A stretch of 50,131 nt of DNA, taken from the NCBI GenBank assembly GCA_029946105.1, contig JAQSDW010000063.1:1-50131 (forward strand). Reading direction: 5' to 3'. Within the stretch, counting starts at the first letter, position 1; each line of letters starts with the position of its first letter. The DNA comes from Reyranella sp. Lineage in GTDB: Bacteria; Pseudomonadota; Alphaproteobacteria; Reyranellales; Reyranellaceae. Positions 9,251-44,552 of the stretch are shown piece by piece. Made by a program: the position numbers and the translations under genes. Under the pieces are notes generated by a model. It was given only the letters and a program-made list of their open reading frames with translations, was not told the DNA's origin and searched no databases.

Positions 9251-10086
9251 CAGACCTTCTCCAGCCACAGGCTCGTGGCCATCGCCTCGGCCGGCTGCGG
9301 CAGGCGGGCCACCACCGAGGCCGCGAGGCGTTCGCCCATCCGCCGCGTCGCCCACACGCTGGAAAACAGCGGTCGATAGGCACCTGATGTGAGCAATGGC
9401 AGCACACCCTGCTGTTCGTTGTAATTCCGCCAGCCCCAGATCGGCGGGTAGTCGAACGGCAGGAAGATGTCGTGGATGTGCACCAGGGCGCCCGCCGGCA
9501 GGCGGGGCAGCACGCGATTGAGCAGGATGTCGACGTCGCTGCCGGGCATCAGGATGTGGCTCGAATCGATGAACAGCACGCCGCCTGCCTGAAGCCCGTC
9601 GAAGGCATCGGACGGGGCGGCCTGCAAGGTCGAGGGCACGACGCGCACCCCCGGCAGGCCGACGATGTCGGCGCGGGGCATCGGATCGATGGCGAGGATC
9701 TCGCCGACGCCGCATTCCGCCCGGGCGAGGATGCGGGTCGAATGGCCCGACCCGACCTCGACGATGCGCTGCGGCTTGCGTTCGCGGACCAGGGCGTAGG
9801 CGACGGCGGCGTCGAGCGCGGGAAACCAGGATTGCCCGGTCAGACTCTTCAACCCTTCGATTCCCGCCGCATGGCGATCGACCGTGTCGAGCATCGAGGC
9901 GAATGCGCCAGCGTGCCGCTCGAAGAGCTGCTCGATCGCCGGATAGGGCGGCTGGGCGCCGGGCGGCGGCAACAGGGGGGCGTAGCGATGCGGAATGAAC
10001 CAGCCGCGCGGGGCGAGACCCAGTACGGTCGGCAATCCCAGCACCAGCCGCCGCCAGCGTCCGCGCAGGCTGAGCGAGCCGGTCAC
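9250..10086 (-). CDS. Class I SAM-dependent methyltransferase (Methyltransf_24 type)
   Basis: This 278-residue protein has motif I as IVEVGSGHSTRILAR and the acidic adenosine-binding motif as EILAIDPMPRADI. It also has VLFIDSSHILMPGSDVD and VHIHDIFLPFDYPP, which fit the Methyltransf_24 group often found with glycan or O-antigen genes. It starts with GTG at 10086, overlapping the stop of the MBL-fold gene by four bases (GTGA), and ends in a one-base overlap with the cyclase. The substrate is unknown. Residues 1-30 are basic and hydrophobic (RRLVLGLPTVLGL), perhaps a membrane-associating segment rather than a signal peptide. Confidence 0.85.
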   Translation of the reverse strand: MTGSLSLRGRWRRLVLGLPTVLGLAPRGWFIPHRYAPLLPPPGAQPPYPAIEQLFERHAGAFASMLDTVDRHAAGIEGLKSLTGQSWFPALDAAVAYALVRERKPQRIVEVGSGHSTRILARAECGVGEILAIDPMPRADIVGLPGVRVVPSTLQAAPSDAFDGLQAGGVLFIDSSHILMPGSDVDILLNRVLPRLPAGALVHIHDIFLPFDYPPIWGWRNYNEQQGVLPLLTSGAYRPLFSSVWATRRMGERLAASVVARLPQPAEAMATSLWLEKV

Positions 10087-20185: not shown

Positions 20186-20428
20186 ATGAGCATCCTCGGC
20201 ATCATCTTGATCGGCCTGGTGGTCGGTCTGATCGCGCGCTTCCTGACGCCCGGCCCCAATCCGCGCGGCATCATCGTCACCATCGTGATCGGCGTCGTCG
20301 GTGCGGTGATCGCCACCTATGGCGGCCAAGCGCTCGGCCTCTACCAGATCGGCCAGCCCGCCGGATTTTTTGGCTCGGTGATCGGCGCTGTCGTGCTGCT
20401 GGTGTTGCTGAAGCTGATCGACCGCTAG
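20186..20428 (+). CDS. GlsB/YeaQ/YmgE family small membrane protein
   Basis: This 80-residue protein consists of three hydrophobic helices (LGIILIGLVVGLIARFL, IIVTIVIGVVGAVIAT and FFGSVIGAVVLLVLLKLI) separated by glycine-rich turns. It matches the transglycosylase-associated protein family, a general stress membrane protein of unknown biochemical role. GGGAGAAGG lies just upstream of ATG 20186. The stop TAG (20426-20428) is interleaved with the stop of the convergent methyltransferase gene; the four bases CTAG serve both. Confidence 0.9.
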   Translation: MSILGIILIGLVVGLIARFLTPGPNPRGIIVTIVIGVVGAVIATYGGQALGLYQIGQPAGFFGSVIGAVVLLVLLKLIDR

Positions 20429-20913
20429 CTGGCGCGGTAGAGAAAATACCGGTCCTTCGGCACGCCCGGCGGCTCGGGCTGCCGCTGCCAGCGCGGCACC
20501 TCGAGCGCCTGGTTGGCGAGCACATGGCCGCCTGGGCCCACCAGCGCGTCGAGCACCGGCCCGAGCCACGCCGCCATGGCCATGTTGGCGGCATGATCGC
20601 CGGTGCCGAGATCGGTATGGATCAACGCCGCGGTCGCCCCGAGCTGGCGCGCGGCGCGCGGCAAGGCCTCGCGCGCTTCACCCATGAACAGTCGGTCGTT
20701 GGGCGGGATGCAGTCGGGATGGGCCGCCACCTGGCGCTCGAAGACGTAGATGTCGCGGCCGGGAAAGAGATCGCGCAGGTGATCGTAGGTCCGTCCATTG
20801 CCCAGCCCGACTTCGAGGATGGGGCCCGGCAGGGCATCGATCGCGGGCTTGAGGAAATTCAGGCAGTCGCGCTGCGCCTGCATGCGCGCGATGAAACTGT
20901 CGAGACGGCTCAT
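20425..20913 (-). CDS. Small class I SAM-dependent methyltransferase
   Basis: This 162-residue protein has motif I as ILEVGLGNGRTYDHLR and an acidic motif DIYVFERQVAAHPDC, followed by AALIHTDLGTGDHAANMAM and LVGPGGHVLANQALEVPR. It is shorter than most free methyltransferases. The start is ATG 20913, ten bases behind the cyclic-nucleotide-binding gene. The longer frame upstream is a shadow. It is third in the unit ABC protein, cNMP-binding protein, methyltransferase, so it may modify a glycan or lipid intermediate of the divergent cluster. That role is inference from position. Confidence 0.8.
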   Translation of the reverse strand: MSRLDSFIARMQAQRDCLNFLKPAIDALPGPILEVGLGNGRTYDHLRDLFPGRDIYVFERQVAAHPDCIPPNDRLFMGEAREALPRAARQLGATAALIHTDLGTGDHAANMAMAAWLGPVLDALVGPGGHVLANQALEVPRWQRQPEPPGVPKDRYFLYRAS

Positions 20914-20923
20914 CAGGATTCGA

Positions 20924-21394
20924 TCAGGCGGCGCTGGTGGCCGTGCGCAGCTTCTCGTTGGCGGTGCGCAGCTTCTGGTTGGTGTCCTCCAGGCGATGCG
21001 CCAGCTCACGCATGATCTCCACCGCCATCTGCGGCAGTTCGGCGACCAGCCGGTAGAACATGTCCTTGGTGATCTTGAGCGTGCTGAGTGGCTCCTTTGC
21101 CTTGATGGTGGCGGTGCGCGGCACGTCGCAGAGGATGGCGATTTCGCCGAAGAAGCTGTTCTTCTTCATCTCGGCCACGGCGATTTGGCCGCCCTCCGTG
21201 TCGATCAGCACATCAGCCGTGCCGCCGAGGATGACGTACATCGTGTCGCCCTGGTCGCCTTGGTGGCAGACCTCCTGGCCAATGGCGAAATTCACCCGCT
21301 CGCTGGTGAAGGCCAGCAACTTCAGTTTCGCCTGGTCGATCTTGGAGAAGATCGGCACCAGCTTCAGCAGCTCGACTTCCTCGTTGAGGTTCAT
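20924..21394 (-). CDS. Stand-alone cyclic-nucleotide-binding protein
   Basis: This 156-residue protein is a single Crp-type cNMP-binding domain without a DNA-binding domain. The phosphate-binding cassette FGEIAILCDVPRTATIKA keeps the glycine-glutamate and arginine that contact the cyclic nucleotide. The C-terminal tail is a helical coiled coil with a short internal repeat (QKLRTANEKLRTA). It lies 19 bases behind the ABC protein gene and ten before the methyltransferase, in one operon. A cytoplasmic regulatory subunit for the ABC protein is the simplest idea; the nearest cyclase gene in the window is at 7898-9250. Confidence 0.88.
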   Translation of the reverse strand: MNLNEEVELLKLVPIFSKIDQAKLKLLAFTSERVNFAIGQEVCHQGDQGDTMYVILGGTADVLIDTEGGQIAVAEMKKNSFFGEIAILCDVPRTATIKAKEPLSTLKITKDMFYRLVAELPQMAVEIMRELAHRLEDTNQKLRTANEKLRTATSAA

Positions 21395-21413: not shown

Positions 21414-24272
21414 TCACGCCGATGCCATGAGGTCGGTATAGAGCCCGCCTTTTGCCGCCAATTCCGACGGCGATCCCTGGGCGACGATACGGCCGCCCTG
21501 CATGATCACGATCTGGTCGAACGGTTCGGCCTGGCTGGGGCGATTGGCGATCCAGATCAGGCCGCGACCGTCCGTTGTCGCCGTCGTCAGCATGTTGTCC
21601 CGGATGCGGTCCTGCGTGCGGCCGTCGAACATGGCGACGGCCTCGTTGACGATCAGGAGCTGCGGCCGCTTGATCAGAGCCCGGGCAATGCCGAGTTTCT
21701 GGCGCTGCGTCGCCGGCAGACGTTTGCCTGCGACGCCGACATTGTACTCCAGGCCGACCTCGATCACCGAATCGTGCAACCCGAGCTCATTCAGCACTTC
21801 CGAGGTCAGTGTGCGGATCCGCTGCTCGCCGTTGGCCTGGCCGTAGACCAGGCGACCGAACAGGATGTTGTCCTGCAAGGTGGCGGCGCTGTTGTAACGC
21901 TGGAAGTCATAGAATTCGACGCCGCCGCGCAGCTCGGCAGGCAGGCCTGACGCGAAAGCGCGGCGGGCGCCGAGCAGGCGCTCCTCGACTGCGCCGTCGA
22001 CCAGGCCGAGACGATGGCGGGCTTCGATGTAGCGGAACGGTAGCGTCATCAGGCGGGCCCGTTCGGTCTCGGGCACGGCCTCGATGCCCTTGCCGCCCAG
22101 CCGCTGCAGCAGCAGCCGGACGTTGGGCAGTTCGTCGGCCGAGATGAAGCTGTACTGCTCGAACAGCGGATTGTCGGGCGACAGGCCGGAGAACAGCTCG
22201 ACCATGGTCTCGGCGATGGTGAGGCCCATGCGCTGCAAGTCGAGATCGAGGCCGGTCGCGCGCAGCACCGACTGCATGTAGGGCTCGGACGCGAGATTGT
22301 CGCCGTCGAACTGCTTGCCGAGCGGCGTGCCGAACAGCAGGTTCTCGGCGACCGACAGATTCTTGTTGTAGAGGTCGGCATTGAACGGCTCGACGAGGCC
22401 GGCATAGGTCTCGTTCTGCAGCCGGCCGTGCAGCGTATGACGCGCCGTGAGGATCTTCTCGGCGAGATCGGGCCGCAACGCCGCGTCGATGCTGCCGCGC
22501 ATGCCGAGCGCATAAATGTCCTCGTCGATCTCGACCTGACGCAGGGCAGCGACCATGCGTGGCAGCAGGTCGGCCGGGCCGCTGGCACCGGCCAGTTCGT
22601 AGTCGATCCAGTCGGCATTGGGATCGAACGGCGGATTGCCGGCGCGCTCCGATTCCTTCCAGAACGCCTCGCGTACCGCACGCACGGCGTCGTCGTATTT
22701 GGCAGGCGCGACCGGCCGGAATTTCAGGCCGAACAGCAGGTTGTCGCGGACCGAGAGGGGAAACAGGTAGGTATCCTGGCCGATGTAGGCGGCGCGGGCG
22801 CCCAGCACATACTCCGGCACCTGGAAAAAATCCTGCCCGTCGAGCCGGACCGAGCCGCCCGTCGGCAGCACCAGGCGGGCCAGCACCTGGCCCAGCACAT
22901 CCTTGCCCGAGCCCGAGCCGCCGATCACCGCCAGCTTGGTCGAGGTCGGGATGGAAAGCGTCACGCCGTCGAGCAGCTTCACCCGGCCGTCCTCGGAGAA
23001 GGTGACGCCGGTCAGCGCCAGTTCCTGGCCGAGCGGCGGCGGCGGCCCGTCGGGGATCGCCTGCAGTTCCGGCGGCATCATGCCCTCGGGCTGGAACTGG
23101 TCGATCACCTGCTCGTACTTGATCTGCACGTCCTGGCGCTGCTGGTCCCAGTCGATCAGCTCCTTGATCGGCGACGGCAGGTCCTTGTAGGCGAGCAGGA
23201 CACCGACCACGGCACCCACGTCCATCTGGCCGGTAATGGCGAAATAGCCGCCGATCAGGTAGATCGCGAACGGGGTCGCCTGGGACAGGAAGTTGTTCCA
23301 GAACTTGGCGACGAACTTTTTCTGATAGAGATCGAAGCGGATCTTGAAGATGGCGCCCAGCCGCTCGGAGATGTCGGCGCGCTCGTAGTTGGCGGCACCG
23401 TGGATATGGATCTCGTGGACGCCGTCGGCGGTCTCGGCGATGCGGCCGGCGAGCAGCCGGGCCGAGAGCTGGCGTTGCCGGCCGAGCACCAGCACCGGTT
23501 TGCGCAGCCGCGGGATGATCGCCATCTGCACCGCCAGCAGGACGACGACGACGATGCCGAGCAACCAGTTCTGCATCATGATGAAGATGATGGCCGTCAG
23601 CGCCTGACCACCCAGGAACATCGGCGCCACGAAGGCGTCGCCGATGAAGCCGCCCAGCGGCTCGACCTCGTCCTTGACCATGGTGGCGAGCTCGGCTTGC
23701 TTGACCTTCCGGAAGTGGGCCGGCGGGAACCGCAGGATCCGGTCGTAGAGCTCGTAACGCAGGCGGCGCAGCATGCGCTCGCCCATGCGGCCCTTCTGGG
23801 TGTTGATGGTCTTCTTGAACTGGCCGTTCACGACCACGGCGCCCAGGAAGACGAAGCTCATGACGACCAGGTACTGGAGCTGGTCGACCTGGAAGCCGTC
23901 GAAGAAGCGGATCACCTTGCCGGGCAGGATGGCCGAGAGATCGAGCTCCCAGACCAGGAACGGGATGGTCGTGCTGTTCTTGAAGGCGTTGCCCTGGATG
24001 CCGTTGTTGATGACCGACTTCGGCACGGTGAGCGACAGGAAGTAGAACAGCTGCGCCAGCACCACGAGGCCCAGGATCACGAGCTGCTCGGGCCGGCTGT
24101 GCCGCCAGATGTAGGTGAACAGATTGCGTTGCATCGAATCCCGCGCGGCGCCGGCTCGGTACTGGAGCCAGAGTCCGGTATATTCGATCAGCCCCTTGAT
24201 TACATTCGATTTTTCGTGTCTGAGAGGCCCGATTTCACGCCGCAGCCCGGCTGTGGCATAGTCCGGCAACAT
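21414..24272 (-). CDS. ABC exporter-like protein with expanded, degenerate nucleotide-binding domain
   Basis: This 952-residue protein has an ABC-exporter membrane domain (hydrophobic segments near 64-90, 133-150, 215-255 and 330-362) followed by a nucleotide-binding domain more than twice the usual size. Walker A is GGSGSGKD (451-458), with aspartate where serine/threonine should be. The signature is RLPATQRQ (851-858) instead of LSGGQ. Walker B is LLIVNEA (872-878), with N876 for Asp but E877 kept. The H-switch position is N910. Between Walker A and the signature, three Q-loop-like cassettes recur: SVRDNLLFG (507-515), SVAENLLFG (640-648) and TLQDNILFG (798-806). The start at ATG 24272 is the longest option; the first 20 residues are doubtful, and ATG 24134 is an alternative. 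It is divergent from the glycosyltransferase operon, 47 bases apart. Confidence 0.85.
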   Translation of the reverse strand: MLPDYATAGLRREIGPLRHEKSNVIKGLIEYTGLWLQYRAGAARDSMQRNLFTYIWRHSRPEQLVILGLVVLAQLFYFLSLTVPKSVINNGIQGNAFKNSTTIPFLVWELDLSAILPGKVIRFFDGFQVDQLQYLVVMSFVFLGAVVVNGQFKKTINTQKGRMGERMLRRLRYELYDRILRFPPAHFRKVKQAELATMVKDEVEPLGGFIGDAFVAPMFLGGQALTAIIFIMMQNWLLGIVVVVLLAVQMAIIPRLRKPVLVLGRQRQLSARLLAGRIAETADGVHEIHIHGAANYERADISERLGAIFKIRFDLYQKKFVAKFWNNFLSQATPFAIYLIGGYFAITGQMDVGAVVGVLLAYKDLPSPIKELIDWDQQRQDVQIKYEQVIDQFQPEGMMPPELQAIPDGPPPPLGQELALTGVTFSEDGRVKLLDGVTLSIPTSTKLAVIGGSGSGKDVLGQVLARLVLPTGGSVRLDGQDFFQVPEYVLGARAAYIGQDTYLFPLSVRDNLLFGLKFRPVAPAKYDDAVRAVREAFWKESERAGNPPFDPNADWIDYELAGASGPADLLPRMVAALRQVEIDEDIYALGMRGSIDAALRPDLAEKILTARHTLHGRLQNETYAGLVEPFNADLYNKNLSVAENLLFGTPLGKQFDGDNLASEPYMQSVLRATGLDLDLQRMGLTIAETMVELFSGLSPDNPLFEQYSFISADELPNVRLLLQRLGGKGIEAVPETERARLMTLPFRYIEARHRLGLVDGAVEERLLGARRAFASGLPAELRGGVEFYDFQRYNSAATLQDNILFGRLVYGQANGEQRIRTLTSEVLNELGLHDSVIEVGLEYNVGVAGKRLPATQRQKLGIARALIKRPQLLIVNEAVAMFDGRTQDRIRDNMLTTATTDGRGLIWIANRPSQAEPFDQIVIMQGGRIVAQGSPSELAAKGGLYTDLMASA

Positions 24273-24319: not shown

Positions 24320-25597
24320 ATGCCCGCCAGCAGCCGGTCCAAGCGTGTGCTGATCTACAGCCACGACTCCTTCGGTCTCGGCCACGTGAGCCGCTGCCGC
24401 ACCATCGCCAATGCCCTCGTCGAGGCCGACGAATCGGTCTCGGTCCTGATCCTGTCGGGCTCGCCGATGATCGGATCCTACGAATTCCGCTCCGGCATCG
24501 ACTTTGTGCGCGTGCCCGGCGTGGTCAAGCAGCTGAGCGGTGAATACGACTCCGCCAACCTCCGGGTCGGCGTCGAGCACACGATGGAAATGCGGACACG
24601 CATCATCCGCGATACCGCCGACATCTTCCGGCCCGACCTCTTCATCGTCGACAAGGAGCCGCTCGGGCTCCGCGGCGAGGTCGGCCCGGCGCTGCGGCTG
24701 CTCAAGGACCGCGGCACGCCGCTGGTGCTCGGCCTGCGCGACGTCATGGACGATCCGGCGGCGCTTGCCCAGGAGTGGGAGCGCAAGAAGATCGTGCCGG
24801 CGCTGCGTGATCTTTACGACGAGATCTGGATCTACGGCCTGCCGCAGATCAACAAGCCGCTCACCGGCATCGATGTGCCGCCCTCGGTGCGTCACAAGAT
24901 GGTCTACACCGGCTATCTGCATCGTGAATTGCCGCTGCACGCCGACGTGCCGCACGAGATCGAGGAGATCGATGGGCCGTTCATCCTGGTCACGTCCGGC
25001 GGCGGCGGCGACGGCGAGGATCTGGTCGACTGGGTGCTCGCGGCCTACGAGCACGATCCCCACATTCCCTATGGCGCGGTGATCGTCTTCGGCCCGTTCA
25101 TGTCGGCGACCGCCCGCGAGTCCTTCAGGGACCGTGCCGTGAAGTTCAAGAACATCCGCACCCTCACCTTCACCAACAATCTCGGCGCGCTGATGCAGCG
25201 CGCGGCGGGCGTGGTCGCCATGGGCGGCTACAATACGTTCTGCGAGATCCTGTCGTTCGACAAAAGGGCGATCATCGTGCCGCGCACCAAGCCGCGGCTG
25301 GAGCAATTCATCCGGGCCCGCGCCGCGCGCAACATCGGCCTGATCGAGATGCTGGACGCCGACAAGGGCCGCGACCCGCAGGCCATGGCGACGGCGCTGC
25401 GCCAGTTGCCGCAGCAGGGCCTGCCGAGCGACGTCGTGGTGCCCGGCCTGCTCGACGGTCTCGGCAATGTCTGGCGTCTGGTCGCCAAGCAGCTGATGAA
25501 CCCGCACCGCGGGCCGGCCTCGCTTGGTGCTGCGGAAAGCAGCGCGGAGCCGGCGCCAGATTCGGCGATCGGTCCGTCGGCGCGCGCCAGGACCTAA
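24320..25597 (+). CDS. MurG/GT28-like glycosyltransferase
   Basis: This 425-residue GT-B fold protein has the N-terminal loop RVLIYSHDSFGLGHVSRC and the C-terminal donor-binding region FILVTSGGGGDGEDLV, LGALMQRAAGVVAMGGYN, TFCEILSFDKRAIIVPR. The GH in the first loop and the GGYNT stretch match the MurG/GT28 and related UDP-sugar transferase layout. The acceptor is unknown. ATG 24320 follows GGGGGAGACGCG. It is the first gene of the glycan operon. The last 30 residues are low complexity. It is a paralogue in type of the gene at 28604-29767. Confidence 0.85.
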   Translation: MPASSRSKRVLIYSHDSFGLGHVSRCRTIANALVEADESVSVLILSGSPMIGSYEFRSGIDFVRVPGVVKQLSGEYDSANLRVGVEHTMEMRTRIIRDTADIFRPDLFIVDKEPLGLRGEVGPALRLLKDRGTPLVLGLRDVMDDPAALAQEWERKKIVPALRDLYDEIWIYGLPQINKPLTGIDVPPSVRHKMVYTGYLHRELPLHADVPHEIEEIDGPFILVTSGGGGDGEDLVDWVLAAYEHDPHIPYGAVIVFGPFMSATARESFRDRAVKFKNIRTLTFTNNLGALMQRAAGVVAMGGYNTFCEILSFDKRAIIVPRTKPRLEQFIRARAARNIGLIEMLDADKGRDPQAMATALRQLPQQGLPSDVVVPGLLDGLGNVWRLVAKQLMNPHRGPASLGAAESSAEPAPDSAIGPSARART

Positions 25598-25610
25598 GCA
25601 CCGGCTGCAC

Positions 25611-26900
25611 ATGTCCGTCGAAAAGGACGCGCGTGTCGCGGTCGTGCTGAAGGGCTGGCCACGTCTTTCCGAGACCTTCATCGCCCAGGAACTGGCCGGT
25701 CTGGAGACGCGCGGCGTCGCGCTCGAGATCTGGTCGCTGCGCCGTCCGACCGACAAGATCCACCATCCGGTCCACGATCGCGTGACCGCGCGCACCGTCT
25801 ACTTGCCCGAATACCTCAAGGACGATCCGCGCCGCGTGTTCGACGGCTGGCGAAAGGCGCGTCGCCTGCCGGGCTATGCGCTCGCGCGGAAAAAATTTCT
25901 CGCCGACCTCAAGCGCGACCCGACGGCCAACCGGGCCCGGCGCTGGGGACAGGCTCTGGTGCTGGCGGCCGAGCTGCCGCCGTCGATCGACCGGCTGTAC
26001 GCTCACTTCCTCCATACACCGGCCTCGGTCGCGCGCTATGCGGCGGCCCTTCGTGGCCTGCCGTGGAGCGTGTCGGCGCATGCCAAGGACATCTGGACCA
26101 GTGAACCATGGGAGCTTTCGGAAAAGCTCGACGACTGCGCCTGGCTGGTCACCTGCACCGCGATAGGCCTGCGGCGGCTGAAGGAACTGGCGTCCCGACC
26201 CGGCAAGCAGTCCGAACACCTGCGCCTCGTCTATCACGGTCTGGACTTCGCCCATTTGCCGCCGCCACCGCCGCTGCGACCGCGCCGCGATGGCACCGAT
26301 GCGGCCGATCCGGTGGTCATCCTGTCGATCGGCCGCAAGGTCGAGAAAAAGGGTTACGACGATCTTCTGGAGGCACTGGCCAGGCTGCCGCGCGAATTGC
26401 ACTGGCGCTTCGAGCATGTCGGCGCCGGCGGACTGTCCGACGCGCTGAAGGCCGAGGCCGCATCGCTCGGCATCGCCCAGCGATGCCTGTGGCACGGTGC
26501 GCAGCCGCAAAAGGCGGTGTTTGCTGCCCTGGCGCGCGCCGATCTGTTCGTGCTGGCCAGCAAGAAAGCGGCCGATGGCGACCAGGATGGCTTGCCGAAC
26601 GTGCTGATGGAGGCAGCCCACCAGGGCCTGCCGCTCGTGTCGACGCACGCTGCGGCCATCGGCGAGTTCATCGACGATGGCGTGAACGGCCTGCTGGTGG
26701 CGCCGGCCGCGCCCGATGAACTGGCGATCGCGCTTGCCCGCCTCGTGGCAAATCCGGATCTTCGCGCCCGCCTGGCCGTACGGGCCGCCGAGACCCTGCA
26801 TGCCCGCTTTTCCTTCGACTCGGGCGTCGACTGGATCGCCGATGCCCTCGGCGGACCAGTGGACCAGCAACGCTCGCAAACGGCGCGCGCCGCGGAGTAA
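25611..26900 (+). CDS. Glycosyltransferase family 4 protein
   Basis: This 429-residue GT-B enzyme has RVAVVLKGWPRLSETFIAQE at the N-terminus, typical of exopolysaccharide GT4 enzymes. Its C-terminal domain reads VVILSIGRKVEKKGYDDLLE, LFVLASKKAADGDQDGLPNV, LMEAAHQGLPLVSTHAAAIG, with the GLPNVLMEA helix holding the donor-binding glutamate. It starts at ATG 25611, 13 bases behind the previous stop; the longer upstream frame is shadow. A retaining NDP-sugar transfer to a lipid- or sugar-linked acceptor is expected from the family. It is part of the glycan operon. Confidence 0.9.
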   Translation: MSVEKDARVAVVLKGWPRLSETFIAQELAGLETRGVALEIWSLRRPTDKIHHPVHDRVTARTVYLPEYLKDDPRRVFDGWRKARRLPGYALARKKFLADLKRDPTANRARRWGQALVLAAELPPSIDRLYAHFLHTPASVARYAAALRGLPWSVSAHAKDIWTSEPWELSEKLDDCAWLVTCTAIGLRRLKELASRPGKQSEHLRLVYHGLDFAHLPPPPPLRPRRDGTDAADPVVILSIGRKVEKKGYDDLLEALARLPRELHWRFEHVGAGGLSDALKAEAASLGIAQRCLWHGAQPQKAVFAALARADLFVLASKKAADGDQDGLPNVLMEAAHQGLPLVSTHAAAIGEFIDDGVNGLLVAPAAPDELAIALARLVANPDLRARLAVRAAETLHARFSFDSGVDWIADALGGPVDQQRSQTARAAE

Positions 26901-26904
26901 TCCC

Positions 26905-28008
26905 ATGCGCGTGCTGCTGCACACGCCGCTCAAGCCGCCGGACAGTTCCACGCCCTCGGGCGATCGCGAGATGGCGCGCGGGCTTGGCCGTCTGCTGCGT
27001 CGCCTCGGCCACGACGTGGTCATGCCGGCTGCCAGCCGCATGGCATCCGGCGTGCCGATGCCCGACGCCCACCTAGGCCTCGAACGCGCCGCCCGCCGGC
27101 GCGCGGCGCGGTTGATCGGTCGCTGGAAGTCCCTGCCGGCCGGCCATCCCGAGCGCTTCGACCTCTGGTTCACCTATCACTGCTATTACCGCAAGCCCGA
27201 CTGGCTGGGCCCGATCGTAACGCGCGCGCTCGGCATTCCCTATGTGATTGCCGAAGCTTCGCATGCACCGCGCCGCGCCCAGGGTCCGGCGCGACTCGGT
27301 CATCGCGCCGTCGAACGTGCACTCGCCGCCGCCGATCTGGTGCTGACGGTCAATCCGCGCGACGTCGCGGGCGTCCGGGCGCGGCTTCGCCCCGGTGCCC
27401 GCCAGCTCCGCCTGCCGCCTTTCATCGATGTGGTGCCGTTTCGCCGCGTCGCGCCGCGGGTGGCGAACGACGTGCCCGTGCTGTTGAGCGTCGGAATGAT
27501 GCGCACGCGCGACAAGCTCGAGTCCTACCGCGTTCTCGCCCAATCCCTCCTGCTCCTGAAGGACCACACATGGCGGGCGGTGCTGGTCGGCGATGGCCCG
27601 GCACGCGGTGAAATAGAGGCGCTGATGGCGCCGCTCGGCGAGCGCGTGCGCTTTGCCGGTGCAGTGGCGCACGGCGATCTGCCGGCGCTTTATGCTGCGT
27701 CGGACCTTTACCTTTGGCCCGCAATCAACGAAGCCTACGGCATGGCATTCCTCGAAGCCCAGGCGGCCGGCCTCGCCGTGGTCGCCGGCCGGACTGGTGG
27801 CGTGCCCGCGGTTGTGGCGGACGGCGTCACGGGCTTGTTGACGCCGATCGGTGATGCCACAGCCTTTGCATCGGCCGTGGCGCGACTGCTCGATGCGCCA
27901 GACGAGCGCGCGCGATTGGCCGCCGCTGCTGCCGCGCGCGTGGCTGCGCACCATGACGAAGACGCTGCCGCTCGTGCGCTGGCAGTGGCACTGCGGAGCT
28001 TGTGGTGA
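26905..28008 (+). CDS. Glycosyltransferase family 4 protein
   Basis: This 367-residue GT-B protein begins MRVLLHTPLKPPDSSTPSGD. The donor-binding half has VLLSVGMMRTRDKLESYRVL, LVGDGPARGEIEAL, FAGAVAHGDLPALYAASDLY and EAYGMAFLEAQAAGLAVVAG, the E-x7-E region of GT4. The start is ATG 26905, four bases behind the previous stop. It overlaps the phosphatase gene by four bases (GTGA). Substrates are unknown. The C-terminal 60 residues are alanine-rich helices. Confidence 0.9.
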   Translation: MRVLLHTPLKPPDSSTPSGDREMARGLGRLLRRLGHDVVMPAASRMASGVPMPDAHLGLERAARRRAARLIGRWKSLPAGHPERFDLWFTYHCYYRKPDWLGPIVTRALGIPYVIAEASHAPRRAQGPARLGHRAVERALAAADLVLTVNPRDVAGVRARLRPGARQLRLPPFIDVVPFRRVAPRVANDVPVLLSVGMMRTRDKLESYRVLAQSLLLLKDHTWRAVLVGDGPARGEIEALMAPLGERVRFAGAVAHGDLPALYAASDLYLWPAINEAYGMAFLEAQAAGLAVVAGRTGGVPAVVADGVTGLLTPIGDATAFASAVARLLDAPDERARLAAAAAARVAAHHDEDAAARALAVALRSLW

Positions 28009-28607
28009 GCGCGGTGCCTTTTGCCATCCTTCGGCATGCCCCGACCGAGTGGAACGCCGCCGGCCGGCTGCAGGGTCTCACCGACACCGGTCTCAGCCGC
28101 GACGGCGAGGCCGCGGCGCGACGCTGGCGCCTGCCGCCGCCGGCCGATGGCTGGAAGCGAATGTCCAGTCCGCTGCAGCGTGCGCGGCGCACGGCCGAAC
28201 TGCTGCAGCCTTCTGTTGCCGTCACCGTCTGCTCGGAGCTGCGCGAAATGAGCTTCGGTGTCTGGGAGGGCCGCACCCTGGCCGAGCTGCGGGCCGCGGG
28301 CGGCGAGACATTCGCTGCAGCCGAGAACGCCGGTCTCGATTTCCAGCCGCCGGGCGGGGAGTCCCCGCGCGCGACGATGACGCGCATCGGGCGCTGGGCG
28401 GCGGATCTGGCGCGTGCCGGCGAGCCCACGGTCGCCGTGTCGCACAAGGCCGCCATCCGTGCCTTGCTCGCGTTGGCCACCGGCTGGAACATGCTGGGCC
28501 GGCCGCCGCACAAGCTCGACTGGCGCTCGGCGCATTTCTTCGTCGCCCACGACGACGGCCTGGTGGCGGTCGAGCGACTGAACGTGTCGCTCGAAGCGGC
28601 TTCATGA
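28005..28607 (+). CDS. Histidine phosphatase family protein
   Basis: This 200-residue phosphoglycerate-mutase-like phosphatase has the catalytic histidine in FAILRHAPTEWNAAGRLQG, the acid/base region ELREMSFGVWEGRTLAEL and the second histidine in VAVSHKAAIRALLAL. The GTG at 28005 overlaps the preceding stop (GTGA), and the end overlaps the next gene (ATGA). In a glycan operon such an enzyme could remove phosphate from a sugar or lipid phosphate, much as GmhB- or CobC-like phosphatases do; that is inference. No signal peptide, so it is cytoplasmic. Confidence 0.9.
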   Translation: MSAVPFAILRHAPTEWNAAGRLQGLTDTGLSRDGEAAARRWRLPPPADGWKRMSSPLQRARRTAELLQPSVAVTVCSELREMSFGVWEGRTLAELRAAGGETFAAAENAGLDFQPPGGESPRATMTRIGRWAADLARAGEPTVAVSHKAAIRALLALATGWNMLGRPPHKLDWRSAHFFVAHDDGLVAVERLNVSLEAAS

Positions 28608-29767
28608 CCGGGCGTGTCTTCTTCCATGTGCAGCACCTTCTGGGCATCGGCCATCTCCGCCGCGCCGCCACGCTCGCGCGCGCCATGGCGGTCGGCGGCT
28701 TCGACGTGCTGCTGGTTTCGGGCGGCGCACCAATCGATGGGTTGGCGCTGGCCGGCGTGCGGTTCCACCAGCTGCCGCCGCTGCGTGCTGCCGATTCAGG
28801 ACTAAGAGATCTGGTCCGGCTCGACGGCACGCCGCTCGACGATGCCTTTCGCGCTGATCGTGCGGGCCGGCTGCTCGATCTGTTCGACTTCGAACAGCCC
28901 GACGTGCTGATGACCGAGCAGTTTCCATTTGGCCGTACGCAGCTCCGCTTCGAACTGATGCCACTGCTCGAGGCAGCGCAGGATCTGCCGTCGTCGCCCT
29001 GGATCGTGTCCTCGGTGCGCGATGTCGTGCGCCGCACGGCCTCGCCCGCCCGCGTCGACGAGACGGTGGCGACCTTCGCCGCGTTCGATGCCCTGCTGAT
29101 CCATGCCGATCCGGCGCTCGTACGTTTCGAGGAGAGTTTTGCGGCGTGGGATGATGTGAAGGCACGGGCGCTCTATACCGGCTACGTGGTTGATTGCGAT
29201 CCCTTGCCCGCGCCCCGCGGCGGGACTGGCCCGGGTATTGTCGGGAAGGGCGAGGTGATCGTGTCGGCAGGCGGGGGCGTGGTGGGTGCGCCCCTGCTGC
29301 ACGCCGCCATTGCAGCGCGACCGCTGACGCCGCTGGCCGATCGGCGCTGGCGCCTGCTGGTCGGCGCCAATATGCCTGCCGCCGAGCAGGCCGCGCTCGC
29401 CGCAGCGGCCACCGATGGCATTGTCGTCGAGCCGGTGCGCGATGACTTTCCGACCTTGCTGCGCAATGCCGCGCTGTCGATTTCCCAAGCCGGCTACAAC
29501 ACGGTCATCGAAACGCTGTGTTACGCCGATCGCGCCGTGCTGGTGCCTTTCGGCACCGCGCGCGAAACCGAGCAGGCCGACCGTGCCCGCCTTCTGGCCG
29601 AGCGTGGCATGGTCGCAGCCGTCCCGCCGGACAGCCTGTCGCCGGCCTCCTTGGCCGCCGCCGTCACCGCGGCATGGGCCGGCCCGTCGATCCGCAGCTT
29701 TCCGCCGGTCGACGCGCGTGGAGGGCAGGCCACTGTCGCGGCGCTCCGTCAGATGGTGGCGTCATGA
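28604..29767 (+). CDS. MurG-like glycosyltransferase
   Basis: This 387-residue protein of the same type as 24320-25597 has VFFHVQHLLGIGHLRRAATL at the N-terminus, EVIVSAGGGVVGAPLL in the middle, and SISQAGYNTVIETLCYADRA then VPFGTARETEQADRARLLAE at the end, the donor-binding region of MurG-like enzymes. The GIGH and AGYNT motifs correspond to GLGH and GGYNT of its relative. The start is ATG 28604 in a four-base overlap with the phosphatase, and the end overlaps the deacetylase-like gene. Two enzymes of this unusual type in one operon suggest two similar linkages. Confidence 0.85.
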   Translation: MTGRVFFHVQHLLGIGHLRRAATLARAMAVGGFDVLLVSGGAPIDGLALAGVRFHQLPPLRAADSGLRDLVRLDGTPLDDAFRADRAGRLLDLFDFEQPDVLMTEQFPFGRTQLRFELMPLLEAAQDLPSSPWIVSSVRDVVRRTASPARVDETVATFAAFDALLIHADPALVRFEESFAAWDDVKARALYTGYVVDCDPLPAPRGGTGPGIVGKGEVIVSAGGGVVGAPLLHAAIAARPLTPLADRRWRLLVGANMPAAEQAALAAAATDGIVVEPVRDDFPTLLRNAALSISQAGYNTVIETLCYADRAVLVPFGTARETEQADRARLLAERGMVAAVPPDSLSPASLAAAVTAAWAGPSIRSFPPVDARGGQATVAALRQMVAS

Positions 29768-30549: not shown

Positions 30550-31052
30550 GTTCAACCGATCTGCGCTACCCGCGCGAGACGCTGTGGGCCGACTATCTGC
30601 GCGCCGCGGCCGGCGTCGTGCTGTGCGGCGCTCCGTTGCTGCTGCTCGACGTCAATCGCTGGCTGGCCGTCATCCTGGCGGCCGGTTTCGTTCTGTTCGC
30701 CTTGTTCCTGGTGCGCACTGCGCTTCGCCATCAGACCCGCTATGTCCTCGGACCGGATACGCTCTGCGCCGACGGGCCGGCGGGCACGCTGGTCGAATGG
30801 GCGCGCCTCGACCGCCTGAAGCTCAGCTATTTCTCGACCAAGCGCGACCGGACGGGTGGCTGGATGCAGCTCAGCATTGGCTCGACGGGCGGACGCCGGG
30901 TAAAGGTCGATTCCTCGCTGGATGGATTTCACGATATCGTCGAGCGGGCGGCGCGCGCTGCCGAGGTCGGCGGCGTCGACCTCAGCGAGTCGACACGCGC
31001 CAATCTGCGGTCAATGGGTATATCGGTGGCGGGTCAGGAAGAATTGGCATGA
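30546..31052 (+). CDS. Small membrane protein, unknown function
   Basis: This 168-residue protein starts with TTG at 30546, which overlaps the previous stop (TTGA). Two transmembrane helices (LRAAAGVVLCGAPLLLL and LAVILAAGFVLFALFLV) are followed by a soluble beta-rich domain of about 80 residues (YVLGPDTLCADGPAGTLVEW, then MQLSIGSTGGRRVKVDSSLD). That layout resembles bacterial PH-like membrane proteins, but I do not recognise a named family. Its end overlaps the peptide ABC ATPase gene by four bases, bridging the glycan operon and the transporter operon. Confidence 0.8.
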   Translation: MSSTDLRYPRETLWADYLRAAAGVVLCGAPLLLLDVNRWLAVILAAGFVLFALFLVRTALRHQTRYVLGPDTLCADGPAGTLVEWARLDRLKLSYFSTKRDRTGGWMQLSIGSTGGRRVKVDSSLDGFHDIVERAARAAEVGGVDLSESTRANLRSMGISVAGQEELA

Positions 31053-33022
31053 AGGATTTGCTCCGCGTCGAGAACCTGACGGTCGATTTCGGCGTTCACG
31101 AAGGAATCCTGCGGGCCGTCGACAACGTGTCCTTCACCATCCCACCCGGCGGCACGCTGGCACTGGTGGGCGAGTCGGGTTCCGGCAAGTCGGTGTGCAG
31201 CCAGGCCATCATGGGTCTGCTGCCCCGCACCGCGACCGTCTCGTCGGGCTCTATCCTGTTCGAGGATCCGCGCGCCAGCGGCGGCCAGATCGACATCGCC
31301 AAGCTCGACCGCACCGGTACCGAGATCAGGCGCATCCGTGGCGGGCAGATTTCCATCATCTTCCAGGAGCCGATGACCTCGCTATCGGCGCTGCACACCG
31401 TGGGCGACCAGATCGGTGAAGCCGTCGAATTGCACGGCGGCAGCCGGCTCAGCCAGCTCCATTCGCTGGGCGACCAGCTCGGCGAGGCGGCGCGGCATTC
31501 CGGCCGCAAGCTCGGCCGCGCCGAGATCGACGAACTGACACGCGACATGCTGCGGATGGTCGGCTTCCCTGATCCCAAACGGGCACTGCGCACCTATCCG
31601 TTCGAACTTTCCGGCGGCCTGCGCCAGCGCGCCATGATCGCCATGGCGCTGGTCTGCCGGCCGGCGCTGCTGATCGCCGACGAGCCGACGACGGCGCTCG
31701 ATGTCACCATCCAGGCCCAGATCCTGCGCCTCATCAAGGATCTGCAGCAGGAACTCGGCATGGCGCTGCTGATGATCACCCATGATCTCGGGGTGGTTGC
31801 CAACGTCGCCGACGACGTGGTCGTGATGTATCGCGGCAAGGTGGTCGAGGCGGGCCAGCTGCACGATATCTTCCGCGACCCCCAGCATCCCTATCTCAAG
31901 GCGCTGCTGCATGCCGTGCCGCGCTTCGACATGGCGCCCGGCGAGCGCCTGCAGCCCATCCGCGAGATTACTGCGGCGACCGGCCATCTTCTCAAGGAGA
32001 AGCCGGCCACGACGCCGACGCCGACGTTCAATCCCGATTCGCCGGTGCTCAAGGTCCGGCACCTCAGCAAGACCTTCCGTATCCGCAAGGCCGACACGTT
32101 GATCGAGTCCCTGCTCGGGGGTGGCACCACGCGAACGATCCGCGCCGTCAACGATGTCAGTTTCGACGTCCAGCGCGGCGAGTGTCTCGGCCTGGTGGGC
32201 GAGTCGGGCTGCGGCAAGACCACGCTCAGCAAGATGTTGATGCGGGGCATCTCGGCCGATCCCAACGAGGGCGCCGGCCGGGTGGTGTTCGACGATTGGG
32301 GCCGCAAGGTCGACGTCATGACGCTCGAGGGCGAGGAGCTGAACCGCTTCCGCACCAAGCTGCAGTTCATATTCCAGGACCCCTTCGGCTCGCTCAATCC
32401 GCGCATGACCGTCTATGACATCCTGGTCGAGCCGCTGATCATCCATCGCATCGGCGATGACGCCTATCGTCGCGAGATGGTGAGCGAGCTGATGGAGATG
32501 GTCGGCCTCGACCGCCGGCACCTCAGCCGCTACCCGCATTCCTTCTCTGGCGGCCAGCGCCAGCGTATCGGCATCGCGCGCTCGCTGGCGCTCAGGCCCG
32601 ACATGGTGATCTGCGACGAGCCCGTCTCGGCGCTCGACGTTTCGATCCAGGCGCAGGTTCTCAATCTGCTCAAGGACCTGCAGAAGCAGCTCGGCCTCAC
32701 CTATCTCTTCATCTCGCACAACCTTGCCGTGGTCGACTACATCGCCGATCGCATCGCGGTGATGTGCGCCGGTCGTCTGGTCGAGCTGGCGCCCGCTGGC
32801 GAATTGTTCCGCAATCCGCTTCACCCCTATACCAAGGCGCTACTGTCGGCCGTTCCGATGCCCGATCCCGACCGTCGACTCGACCTGGGTGCCCTGATGG
32901 AGGGCAAGGCTTCGGACCCGGCGGCATGGCCGGAGCCGTACAAGGATACCGGACAGCAGCCGCTGTTCTGGACCGAGGCCGTGCCGGGGCACTATGTCCG
33001 TGTCGCGCGGGAAGGGGCCTGA
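31049..33022 (+). CDS. Fused double-ATPase of a peptide-type ABC importer (OppD-OppF fusion)
   Basis: This 657-residue protein contains two complete nucleotide-binding domains. The first has Walker A GESGSGKS (41-48), Q106, the signature ELSGGLRQR and [12 protein letters not shown]. The second has [36 protein letters not shown] and [11 protein letters not shown], plus the OppF-type [12 protein letters not shown] tail. It energises uptake of peptides or similar solutes with the two permeases that follow. The first domain carries an internal duplication just after the Q-loop, [10 protein letters not shown] (116-125) and [10 protein letters not shown] (138-147). The start is ATG 31049 in a four-base overlap with the upstream membrane protein. 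Confidence 0.93.
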
Positions 33023-33024
33023 GC

Positions 33025-34023
33025 ATGCTTAAGTTCATCGTGCATCGCGTGCTGCTGATGATCCCGACCCTGTTCATCATCAGCGCCCTTGTCTATTTCA
33101 TCATCGACCTGCCGCCGGGCGACTGCGTCACCTCGCAGATCGACGAGCTGCTGGCGCGCGGCGACCCCGATGCCCACAAGCGCGCCGAGGAGCTGCGCTC
33201 GCTTTACGGCCTGGATCAACCGTTGTGGGAGCGCTACTTCGACTGGGTCGGCGGCATTTTCCATTGGGATTTTGGCTTGAGCTGCCAGGACACGGTGCCC
33301 GTCGGCGATCTGATCGGCGAGCGCATGGCGCTCACGCTGATCATGGAATCCACGACCATCGCCTTCATCTGGATCGTGTCGTTCGTCATTGGCGTTTACG
33401 CCGCGACCCACCAGTACCGAATGGGCGATTACATGGCTTCGTTCATCGGCTTCGTCGGTCTGTCGGTGCCGAACTTTCTGCTGGCGCTGGTGCTGCTCTA
33501 TGTCGGCAAGGTCTACTTTGGCCTGTCGATCGGCGGCCTGATGGACCCCCAATACATCGATAAACCATTCAGCTGGGGCAAGTTCGTCTCGGTGGCCCAG
33601 CACCTCATCATCCCGGTAATCGTCATCGGCATGTCGGGGACCGCCGGCATGATCCGGCGGCTGCGCGCCAACCTGCTCGACGAATTGCAGAAGCAGTACG
33701 TCGTCACTGGTCGGGCCAAGGGCCTGCCGCCGCTCCGGCTGCTGATCAAGTATCCGCTGCGCCACGCCATCAACCCTTTCATCGCCGACATCGGCGGCCT
33801 GCTGCCCGACGTCATCTCGGGTTCGGTCATCGTCTCGGTGGTGCTGTCGCTGCCGACGACCGGGCCGATGCTGCTGGGAGCGCTCAAGACCCAGGACGTA
33901 AACCTCGCCGCCACCTTCCTGCTGTTCGTGGCGGTGCTGACGGTGGTCGGCATGCTGATCTCGGATCTGGCGCTCGCTGCACTCGATCCGCGCATCCGCT
34001 TCGGCGCCTCGTCAGAGAAGTGA
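33025..34023 (+). CDS. Peptide-type ABC transporter permease (DppB/OppB family)
   Basis: This 332-residue inner-membrane permease has about six helices. The N-terminal FIVHRVLLMIPTLFIISALV and the conserved loop RAEELRSLYGLDQPLWERYF are typical of OppB/DppB. The EAA coupling motif is GRAKGLPPLRLLIKYPLRHA, which docks on the ATPase. It follows the ATPase gene by two bases, and the second permease follows after seven. Substrate could be peptides, nickel or opines; with no binding protein here the specificity cannot be read. Confidence 0.92.
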   Translation: MLKFIVHRVLLMIPTLFIISALVYFIIDLPPGDCVTSQIDELLARGDPDAHKRAEELRSLYGLDQPLWERYFDWVGGIFHWDFGLSCQDTVPVGDLIGERMALTLIMESTTIAFIWIVSFVIGVYAATHQYRMGDYMASFIGFVGLSVPNFLLALVLLYVGKVYFGLSIGGLMDPQYIDKPFSWGKFVSVAQHLIIPVIVIGMSGTAGMIRRLRANLLDELQKQYVVTGRAKGLPPLRLLIKYPLRHAINPFIADIGGLLPDVISGSVIVSVVLSLPTTGPMLLGALKTQDVNLAATFLLFVAVLTVVGMLISDLALAALDPRIRFGASSEK

Positions 34024-34030
34024 GGCGGAC

Positions 34031-35236
34031 ATGACCGACCAGACCTCGCCTCCCCCATCCGGTGCACCCAAGCCCGCCCCTCAACCCGGGCGCACGCCGC
34101 ATTTCGTCAACCGCGAGCCATGGGATCCCTACGTCTCCGAGCGCCTGACCGCCGACCAGGAACGGTACTACATGGCCGGCCAGTGGAAGCTGATGTGGTG
34201 GCGTTTTCGCCGCCATCGGCCGGCCGTCGTCTCGATGATCTTCCTGGCGTTGATGTATTTTTCCACGGCCATCAGCGAATGGATCGCACCCTACGACCTG
34301 CACAGCCGCCACTCGGCCTATATCTTCGCGCCGCCGCAGGAAGTGCACATGTTCCACGACGGCAAGTTTCTCGGGCCTTTCGTCTATGGCTTGAAGACCG
34401 CGCGCGACCCCGAGACACTGCAGCGCGTCTACACGCCAGATCCGACCAAACCGATGCCGCTCCGCTTCTTCTGCAGCGGTGCGGCCTACGAATTCTGGGG
34501 CATGATCGACGCCACGTTCCATTTCGTCTGCCCGGCCGAGGGCGGACAGTTCTTCTGGCTGGGCACCGATCGGCTGGGGCGTGACCTGTTCAGCCGCATC
34601 GTCTACGCCGCGCGCATCTCGCTCACCATCGGCGTCATCGGCATCACGCTGTCATTCGCGCTGGCGCTGATCCTGGGAGGCCTGGCGGGTTATTACGGCG
34701 GCTGGGTCGACAGTGTCGTCCAGCGCATCACCGAGATCATCAAGAGCTTCCCGCATCTGCCGCTGTGGCTGGCGCTGTCGGCGGCGCTGCCCGTCACCTG
34801 GTCGCCGCTGGTGATCTATTTCGGCATCACCATCATCCTGGCATTGCTCGACTGGCCGGGGTTGGGGCGCGCCGTGCGCTCCAAGCTTCTGTCGTTGCGC
34901 GAGGAGGACTACGCGGCCGCCGCCCAGATGATGGGCGCCAAGCCAGGCCGCATCATCGGCCGCCACCTCCTGCCCGGCTTCATGAGCCACCTGATCGCCT
35001 CGGCGACGCTGTCGATCCCCTCGATGATCCTGGCCGAGACGGCGCTGTCGTTCCTGGGTCTCGGTCTCCGGCCGCCCATCACCTCCTGGGGCGTCCTGCT
35101 GAACGAGGCGACCGACATCAATGTCGTCGCCGTGAATTGGTGGCTGATGTTGCCGGTCGTGCCGGTCATCCTGGTGATCCTGGCCTACCAGTTCATGGGA
35201 GATGGAATGCGTGACGCTGCGGATCCCTACGCCTAA
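34031..35236 (+). CDS. Peptide-type ABC transporter permease (DppC/OppC family)
   Basis: This 401-residue permease has a proline-rich cytoplasmic N-terminus of about 45 residues, a first helix (AVVSMIFLALMYFSTAI) and a long extracytoplasmic loop of about 110 residues before the conserved FFWLGTDRLGRDLFSRIVYA. The EAA motif is AAQMMGAKPGRIIGRHLLPG, and the end ETALSFLGLGLRPPITSWG is standard for OppC/DppC. The long loop resembles YejE-type and related permeases. The last four codons and the stop lie within the hairpin at 35227-35257. No substrate-binding protein gene follows; the next 420 bases are non-coding. Confidence 0.92.
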   Translation: MTDQTSPPPSGAPKPAPQPGRTPHFVNREPWDPYVSERLTADQERYYMAGQWKLMWWRFRRHRPAVVSMIFLALMYFSTAISEWIAPYDLHSRHSAYIFAPPQEVHMFHDGKFLGPFVYGLKTARDPETLQRVYTPDPTKPMPLRFFCSGAAYEFWGMIDATFHFVCPAEGGQFFWLGTDRLGRDLFSRIVYAARISLTIGVIGITLSFALALILGGLAGYYGGWVDSVVQRITEIIKSFPHLPLWLALSAALPVTWSPLVIYFGITIILALLDWPGLGRAVRSKLLSLREEDYAAAAQMMGAKPGRIIGRHLLPGFMSHLIASATLSIPSMILAETALSFLGLGLRPPITSWGVLLNEATDINVVAVNWWLMLPVVPVILVILAYQFMGDGMRDAADPYA

Positions 35237-40504: not shown

Positions 40505-41040
40505 ACCGCCATCTCCTCTTCCTCCTGCCGCTGGCGACGCTGGCACTAATGGCGGGCTTCTTCGCCTGGTCGCTGCTGGCGGGGCGCGATCCTGCGTCGA
40601 TCGGCTCGGTGCTGGTCGGCCGTCCAGCGCCGCGCCTCGAGGTGAAGGCGCTACGCGAGGCAGAGCCGCCGCTCACCGACGCGCTGCTGAAGAGCGGCAA
40701 GCCGGTGATCGTGAATTTCTTCGCGAGCTGGTGCACGCCCTGCCTCGCCGAGCATCCGCTGTTCGCGCGCCTGGCCGAGCGCGACGGCGCGGTCATCATC
40801 GGCATTGCCTGGAAGAACAAGCCCGAGGAGGCGCGCGCCTGGCTGAAGCGGCTGGGCGATCCCTACAAGTTCGCCGGCGCCGATCTGGAAGGCCGCACCG
40901 GCCTCGACTGGGGTCTGTCCGGCGTGCCCGAGACCTATCTGGTGGATGGACAAGGCATCGTCCGCCGCCACTTCCGCGGGCCGATCACCGAGCGCGACGT
41001 AAACGAGACGATCATGCCCTTCCTCAAGGGCGCAAAATGA
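40501..41040 (+). CDS. ccmG: Thiol:disulfide oxidoreductase CcmG/DsbE
   Basis: This 179-residue membrane-anchored thioredoxin-fold protein has a signal-anchor (LLFLLPLATLALMAGFFAW), active site NFFASWCTPCLAEHP (C78, C81) and the cis-proline region GLSGVPETYLVDGQG. It reduces the apocytochrome haem-binding cysteines or CcmH in the periplasm. ATG 40501 overlaps the ccmF stop, and the end overlaps ccmH. Confidence 0.96.
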   Translation: MNRHLLFLLPLATLALMAGFFAWSLLAGRDPASIGSVLVGRPAPRLEVKALREAEPPLTDALLKSGKPVIVNFFASWCTPCLAEHPLFARLAERDGAVIIGIAWKNKPEEARAWLKRLGDPYKFAGADLEGRTGLDWGLSGVPETYLVDGQGIVRRHFRGPITERDVNETIMPFLKGAK

Positions 41041-41489: not shown

Positions 41490-41502
41490 TGCCCAAACTC
41501 CG

Positions 41503-44552
<3,050 letters not shown>

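Follow-up and report, generated by a model that had tools for sequence, protein, structure and literature searches.

The 50,131-nucleotide stretch of Reyranella sp. DNA analyzed here (contig JAQSDW010000063.1; hereafter the window) encodes, at positions 21414–24272 on the minus strand, an ATP-binding cassette (ABC) exporter that belongs to a widespread and apparently undescribed family. The fold of the protein is known; what appears to be new is the combination of three features, these being a partial internal triplication within the nucleotide-binding domain (NBD), the loss of the ATP-hydrolysis motifs, and an accompanying cyclic-nucleotide-binding domain (CNBD) that is encoded next to the exporter or fused to it. 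The CNBD partner and a neighborhood rich in glycosyltransferases, neither of which figured in an earlier note on this DNA, are the main clues to function. Based on sequence comparison, we give about even chances to the reading that the protein is a CNBD-controlled exporter of a surface glycan whose own NBD has stopped hydrolyzing ATP. Transport driven by ATP is the defining trait of ABC exporters, and a selected, widespread lineage that lacks the hydrolysis motifs but keeps the fold, an enlarged subdomain and a sensor would represent a natural experiment on the roles of an NBD beyond the burning of ATP. We found no recognizable description of the family, or of triplication combined with motif loss and a CNBD subunit, in the openly licensed literature. 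Where public annotation is present, members are named 'ABC transporter ATP-binding protein', 'ABC transporter transmembrane domain-containing protein' or similar. All parts of the exporter gene for which coordinates are given below lie on the minus strand.

The catalytic motifs were examined in 56 representatives, obtained by clustering below 80% identity the window protein together with 123 open reading frames (ORFs) of at least 800 amino acids; these ORFs were taken from 131 with a match to the insert described below and include some duplicate loci. In the window protein the motifs are found where the earlier note had placed them (GSGSGKD at residues 452–458, RLPATQRQ at 851–858, LLIVNEA at 872–878 and WIANR at 907–911), and the deviation it reported at all main catalytic positions is present there and extends, as a loss of hydrolysis motifs, across the family. 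The degenerate Walker A (IGGSGSGKDV, residues 450–459; 22896–22925) reads GGSGSGKD, unlike GxxGxGK[S/T], and Lys followed by Ser or Thr occurs in a single representative. The remainder of the NBD (residues 849–952; 21417–21728) contains the signature-like RLPATQRQ, with LPATQ in place of LSGGQ, the Walker-B-like LLIVNEA with Asn-Glu, a D-loop, and Asn910 at the position of the H-switch. Among the 56 representatives, S/T-G-G of the signature was found in none, Asp followed by Glu or Gln at Walker B in 4, the Q-loop Gln in 8 and the H-switch His in 15, and none kept three or more of the five catalytic motifs. The replacements D458, N876 and N910, which the earlier note had looked to homologues to retain, are not kept, these positions drifting. 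The same alignment shows Asn644, Asn802 and Gly806 of the repeated cassettes to be invariant (56/56). The four rhizobial members examined have no Walker A Lys, the Walker A of Sinorhizobium meliloti being GGTSGGGEA. These alignments suggest that the exporter may function with no ATP motor of its own.

A Q-loop-like cassette occurs three times, as the earlier note had recognized: SVRDNLLFG at residues 507–515, SVAENLLFG at 640–648 and TLQDNILFG at 798–806, with spacings of 133 and 158 residues. Unit 1 (residues 492–600; 22473–22799) consists of a strand, the cassette and then helices, and includes a NADWIDY element (residues 552–558; 22599–22619), the Trp555 of which is found in 52 of the 56 representatives. 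Unit 2 (residues 624–700; 22173–22403) and unit 3 (residues 782–848; 21729–21929) each consist of the cassette followed by helices. We compared the repeats with hhalign, using profiles made from 124 aligned sequences and column shuffles as the control. Cassettes 2 and 3, each with its surroundings, aligned over 84 columns (98.9%, E 2e-17). Cassette 1 together with its long linker aligned with the other two over only 26 columns (39.8% and 68.6%; E 3e-4 and 5e-5). When the linkers were left out, unit 1 aligned with unit 3 over 62 columns (E 2e-9) and with unit 2 over 83 columns (E 9e-12), with all pairs of whole units giving 61–83 columns and E-values of 2e-9 to 1e-15. The short helix segments behind cassettes 1, 2 and 3 also matched one another (E 1e-6 to 2e-5). 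Not one of 60 column shuffles scored as high as any of these comparisons; this control is imperfect, in that a negative pair (residues 700–745 against 838–880) beat 100 of 100 shuffles, but with a probability of 3.9%. These data support the partial internal triplication that the earlier note had proposed, the cassettes being related beyond their LLFG core with profile scores above every shuffle.

The profile comparisons support a picture in which the Q-loop cassette and the helices that open the helical subdomain are present three times; unit 1 includes the linker bearing NADWIDY, and a long linker lies behind unit 2. No repeat of the signature helix was detectable, 45 and 52 of 100 shuffles scoring equally well. 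A triplication of the full helical subdomain, hinted at by the order of secondary structure, was rejected, the signature helix scoring no better than shuffles. For the cassette units, the profile matches rule out that the insert is an unrelated domain. Three Pfam queries with the insert gave nothing at E ≤ 1, a search of PHROGs gave nothing at E ≤ 0.1, and the sole match of its profile to solved structures at E ≤ 1 was a haemagglutinin chain (E 0.13), which was taken as chance. Of the 10 relatives measured, 9 have an insert span (residues 516–846 in the window protein) of 331 residues and one has a span of 328; the insert is incomplete in some distant members.

Domain searches and structure models place these features within a Type IV ABC exporter fold, with a transmembrane domain (TMD) of the ABC_membrane type preceding an ABC-fold NBD. 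Pfam detected PF00664 (ABC_membrane; 57.9 bits, E 1.7e-15) in the TMD (residues 47–400; 23073–24134) and PF00005 in two stretches (59 bits), both above cut-off. The top NCBIfam match was MsbA, which at 187.5 bits lies far under the cut-off of 602. For the structure models, 12 of the 57 available sequences were supplied for the full length and 27 of the 57 for the NBD. The full-length model was of moderate quality, with a predicted local distance difference test score (pLDDT) of 72.9 and a predicted template modeling score (pTM) of 0.51, and its first three Foldseek matches were TmrAB chains (E 3e-17 at the top, but with a TM-score of only 0.30 by query length). The model for the NBD (residues 410–952) was good (pLDDT 87.4, pTM 0.83), and 239–246 of its 543 residues superpose on solved complete NBDs (Z 27–29, root-mean-square deviation 1.9–2.4 Å; 50 matches listed). 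Because this part of the model suffices to cover complete NBDs, the exporter is predicted to contain a complete ordinary NBD fold plus approximately 300 extra residues.

Substitution rates were used to evaluate the length of the protein and the selection acting upon it, the ratio of nonsynonymous to synonymous rates (dN/dS) being determined with 13 hand-picked near relatives. The ORF has 952 codons counted from the first ATG, and the length given in the earlier note holds for the ORF but probably not for the protein. Residues 1–46 had a median dN/dS of 0.99 (10 comparisons), resembling non-coding DNA; residues 47–952 had a dN/dS of about 0.15 (13 comparisons), and M47 is retained among the variants examined (MQRNLF/MERSLF). 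Because the ratio is about 1 over the first 46 residues and M47 is kept, residues 1–46 are probably not coding and the conserved start is probably M47, giving a protein of about 906 rather than 952 residues (21414–24134). The protein is nonetheless longer than a half-exporter of 580–620 residues, as had been claimed, and 123 of the 131 ORFs with an insert match have at least 800 amino acids. These intact ORFs, together with the dN/dS of about 0.15, rule out a pseudogene or a sequencing artefact.

The dN/dS values indicate that the exporter gene is under purifying selection. By part, the constraint is strongest in cassette 1 (median 0.015) and weakest in the ATP-binding lobe (0.27), with the TMD (0.053) being the most constrained large domain. 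The sequence identity of the ATP-binding lobe lagged that of the TMD in all four comparisons made (70, 70, 71 and 49% against 84, 93, 95 and 67%). For two canonical exporters compared across the same genomes, the lobe lagged in 3 of 8 comparisons (two clearly, one slightly) and not in the other 5. An NBD that outpaces the TMD is a weak sign by itself, the NBD being clearly faster in 2 of the 8 canonical comparisons as well.

Directly downstream of the exporter is a gene for a CNBD protein of 156 amino acids (20924–21394, minus strand; PF00027, E 1.2e-18), which scores 42.4 bits against NCBIfam cyc_nuc_ocin, below the cut-off of 161. Residues 82–97 of this protein (21104–21151, minus strand) form the motif FGEIAILCDVPRTATI, which we take to be the phosphate-binding cassette. 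The Gly, Glu/Asp and Arg of this cassette hold the cyclic phosphate in CNBDs, and over 123 CNBD rows the Gly was found in 123, the Arg in 122 and the Glu/Asp in 121. A CNBD match was present at 117 of the 123 tabulated loci (duplicates included), with 13 of the matches inside the exporter ORF; all five of these 13 ORFs that were run through Pfam were confirmed as fusions. A second set, which overlaps the 123-locus set, took one 20-kb stretch from each of 40 genomes picked for long contigs, and 20 stretches from 17 of these genomes served as controls. The CNBD was found at 39 of the 40 loci (33 lying immediately downstream under a strict rule, one within a long frame that overlaps, and five as fusions), compared to any CNBD match in 2 of the 20 control stretches. 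Taken with the motif counts of the exporter, the alignments indicate that the motor residues drift while the sensor residues stay.

Some loci provide a lead as to how exporter and CNBD might interact. At five loci (L181, L120, L121, L123 and L134) an exporter without NADWIDY is found together with the absence of a CNBD, and this co-loss may point to a docking site. It is treated as a lead only because other loci break the pattern, L124 and L131 having the CNBD without a full NADWIDY, and L137 and L141 having the motif region without a CNBD match. Cyclase genes lie close to the exporter at three loci (L169, L155 and L178) and several are found around the rhizobial loci L145 and L146. The window contains a class III nucleotide cyclase gene (7898–9715, minus strand) approximately 12 kb from the exporter, a proximity that may be due to chance because the genome has 30 cyclase matches.

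The genes divergent from the exporter, all on the plus strand, are predominantly glycosyltransferases. These are a glycosyltransferase family 28 (GT28)-like gene (24320–25597; PF04101), a glycosyltransferase family 4 (GT4)-type gene (25524–26900; PF00534), a second GT4-type gene (26716–28008; PF13692), a gene for a histidine-phosphatase superfamily protein (28002–28607; PF00300), and a second GT28-like gene (PF04101), whose ORF from the first start codon spans 27851–29767 but which probably starts near 28605. Their synteny clusters are represented at 30, 30, 29, 27 and 29 of the 40 loci, respectively, and at none of the 20 control stretches. The counts for the two GT28-like clusters are not independent because their memberships overlap. 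On the other side, the next gene downstream encodes an S-adenosylmethionine (SAM) methyltransferase (Methyltransf_17; 20425–21009, minus strand), relatives of which are found at 18 of the 40 loci and in none of the controls.

A member of the family in S. meliloti gives a potential link to a known surface polysaccharide. On pSymB of strain R28 the order of genes is an importer-type ABC set, three glycosyltransferases, a methyltransferase, the exporter, the CNBD gene, an FkbM methyltransferase and a LacI regulator. SM_b21272 is listed as a LacI regulator (PMC11387232), and counting back from it along the R28 order makes the exporter 21269 and the CNBD gene 21270. The same count puts 21265 on a 'glycosyltransferase family protein', which is its name in PMC10128002. 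By these inferred tags, the S. meliloti exporter and CNBD fall within the PPP region, smb21252–smb21271. As reported there, nine genes between smb21252 and smb21271 are needed for the uncharacterized PPP surface polysaccharide, which protects against phazolicin, and mutants of smb21252 and smb21265 have an eight-fold lower minimal inhibitory concentration (MIC) of phazolicin (PMC10128002). The adenylate cyclase gene cyaA was depleted in the same screen; the paper also cites cyclic AMP (cAMP) as having been reported to regulate genes that may take part, and names BacA (PMC10128002). The region is described there by its glycosyltransferases, and the transporter motifs and the CNBD are not mentioned in the portion of the paper available (PMC10128002). 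GT28-like and GT4 genes stand beside the ABC and CNBD genes in both pSymB and the window, the comparison covering the part near the ABC gene. Members are present in genetically tractable rhizobia and, by the inferred tags, in a region already connected with protection against an antimicrobial peptide, which makes the idea directly testable. The S. meliloti member is not MsbA2, since a fragment of the msbA2 operon lies at 938.3 kb of pSymB and the exporter at 841.7–844.4 kb. In S. meliloti 1021 the locus at approximately 841.7–844.4 kb of pSymB (L218) has a length difference of one base from R28, and its longest frame is 805 amino acids compared to 903.

Comparison with known systems sets the family apart from each of them. 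Type IV half-exporters (the class of MsbA, TmrAB and P-glycoprotein) share the ABC_membrane TMD and the NBD fold; the present family differs by its approximately 300 extra residues in the helical subdomain, its drifted hydrolysis motifs, and the neighboring or fused CNBD at nearly every locus. The HetC and NHLM-type exporters are likewise physically tied to a CNBD. HetC has a peptidase domain, an ATPase residue that is essential, and an N-terminal CNBD; its CNBD is required in vivo (PMC10986499). Here, in contrast, Pfam lists no peptidase domain (Peptidase C39) in the window exporter or the seven relatives scanned, the motifs for hydrolysis are gone, the CNBD sits at the C-terminus or is a protein by itself, and the neighbors are glycosyltransferases. 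Exporters with one degenerate site (TmrAB, TM287/288, MsRv1273c/72c and CFTR) also lack catalytic residues in an otherwise normal NBD. These retain one good site by means of a canonical partner or a second half, whereas here the motifs are lost on both faces of the NBD and no partner is seen nearby in the loci examined; we know of no counterpart to the triplication among them. SbmA/BacA, peptide transporters of the exporter fold that act as importers, have no NBD at all and manage without a built-in ATPase domain; compared to them, the present family retains a full but altered NBD.

From the architecture, the motif loss, the selection, the CNBD association and the glycosyltransferase neighborhood we infer the following mechanism. 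The divergent set of glycosyltransferases would build a glycan or glycolipid, which the TMD would move over the inner membrane. The NBD would serve as an allosteric coupling module instead of an ATPase, and the downstream or fused CNBD would bind a cyclic or related nucleotide and open or close the transporter through this module. If the NBD is a coupling module, transport would therefore be driven by something other than ATP hydrolysis at this NBD, whether the flux of substrate, the proton gradient or a distinct partner with ATPase activity. Of all parts of the mechanism, the supply of energy is the least secure. A more specific version is that of a glycan exporter free of ATP hydrolysis and gated by a cyclic or related nucleotide, in which the motor, with its three helical-subdomain units, has become a regulatory module that takes the signal of a dedicated CNBD subunit, while the power for export comes from substrate flux, a proton gradient or the synthesis of the polymer; we consider this version rather doubtful.

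A number of observations weigh against a CNBD-controlled exporter that has stopped hydrolyzing ATP. The Walker A Lys remains in 29 of the 56 representatives and is replaced by Arg in 13 (42/56 together), and the Walker B Asp (14/56), the H-switch His (15/56) and the D-loop Asp (43/56) persist to varying degrees. Three small genomes with a member hold 3–5 other ABC_membrane matches each, and the protein could possibly bind ATP, or hydrolyze it at a composite site with a canonical partner. With respect to regulation, there is no CNBD at 6 of the 123 tabulated loci and at 1 of the 40 (L181). Cyclases lie near the exporter at 6 of 40 loci compared to 2 of 20 controls, which is no clear enrichment, and a cyclase neighborhood is not claimed as a general trait. 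Nor does a CNBD necessarily bind cAMP: in HetC the domain binds guanosine tetraphosphate (ppGpp), its best ligand in vitro (PMC10986499). The link to PPP is one of position in the region by counted-back tags, and the phazolicin MIC of the cyaA mutant fell only two-fold (PMC10128002, Table 1).

Part of this evidence could be accommodated by a heterodimer, in which the degenerate half pairs with a canonical half encoded elsewhere that contributes a single functional ATPase site, by analogy with TmrAB, TM287/288 and MsRv1273c/72c. The NBD fold and elements of the dimer persist in the family (D-loop Asp in 43/56, Gln858 in 42/56, Lys/Arg859 in 47/56), the three best matches to the full-length model are TmrAB chains, and member genomes carry other exporters. 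However, no second exporter half was found in the annotated loci examined or among the conserved neighbors identified by Pfam (others were not scanned), and the drift of Walker A, signature and H-switch alike would affect both composite sites. Known degenerate-site heterodimers, whose halves usually have neighboring genes, retain one full motif set between their halves, and we consider a heterodimer of this kind unlikely. The protein might instead be a slow or unusual ATPase that makes use of replaced residues, such as an acidic residue for the Ser/Thr of Walker A. The presence of Asp or Glu at that position in 38 of 56 representatives, and of Lys or Arg just before it in 42 of 56, indicates a non-random replacement; on the other hand, both Lys and Arg are missing in 14 of 56, the four rhizobial members examined lack the Walker A Lys, and the Q-loop Gln and the Asp-Glu/Gln of Walker B are down to 8 and 4 of 56. 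We consider an unusual ATPase quite improbable. It is very unlikely that the protein is no longer a transporter but a membrane scaffold or receptor that senses a nucleotide or glycan intermediate and regulates biosynthetic enzymes. A drifted motor, a kept sensor motif and the tight link to glycosyltransferases would fit such a role, but no other large domain is as constrained as the TMD (median dN/dS 0.053), and the stretch shown of the four annotated rhizobial loci contains no other glycan exporter, the other ABC set there being importer-type and including a binding protein.

The distribution of the family was determined by several searches. A scan of species genomes yielded 69 loci. Most of them carry the title of Reyranella or of another group of Alphaproteobacteria, and more distant members come from Tistrella, a Rhodovibrionaceae and Hyphomicrobiales. 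One record lies beyond the Alphaproteobacteria by its title, this being Candidatus Muproteobacteria (locus L075). With a search profile of the insert alone, built from 11 sequences, matches were obtained in 131 of the 385 genomes that made up a sample of the class; a phylum-level draw that overlaps this sample gave 31 of 398, and among the matches listed for the latter, all are of the same class. The insert also matched 263 plasmid records, including p42e of Rhizobium etli and pSymB of S. meliloti, and no record of the phage collection searched. Some genomes contain two or three divergent fused paralogues, with three in G154 (L126, L127 and L130) and two in G331 (L125 and L128).

Other genes of the window include importer-type peptide ABC genes (30584–35236), which follow the glycosyltransferases and encode an ATPase with two ABC matches and two permeases; a similar importer-type set adjoins the rhizobial loci. 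Further along are ordinary cytochrome c maturation genes of the CcmF and CcmH type (38555–42762).

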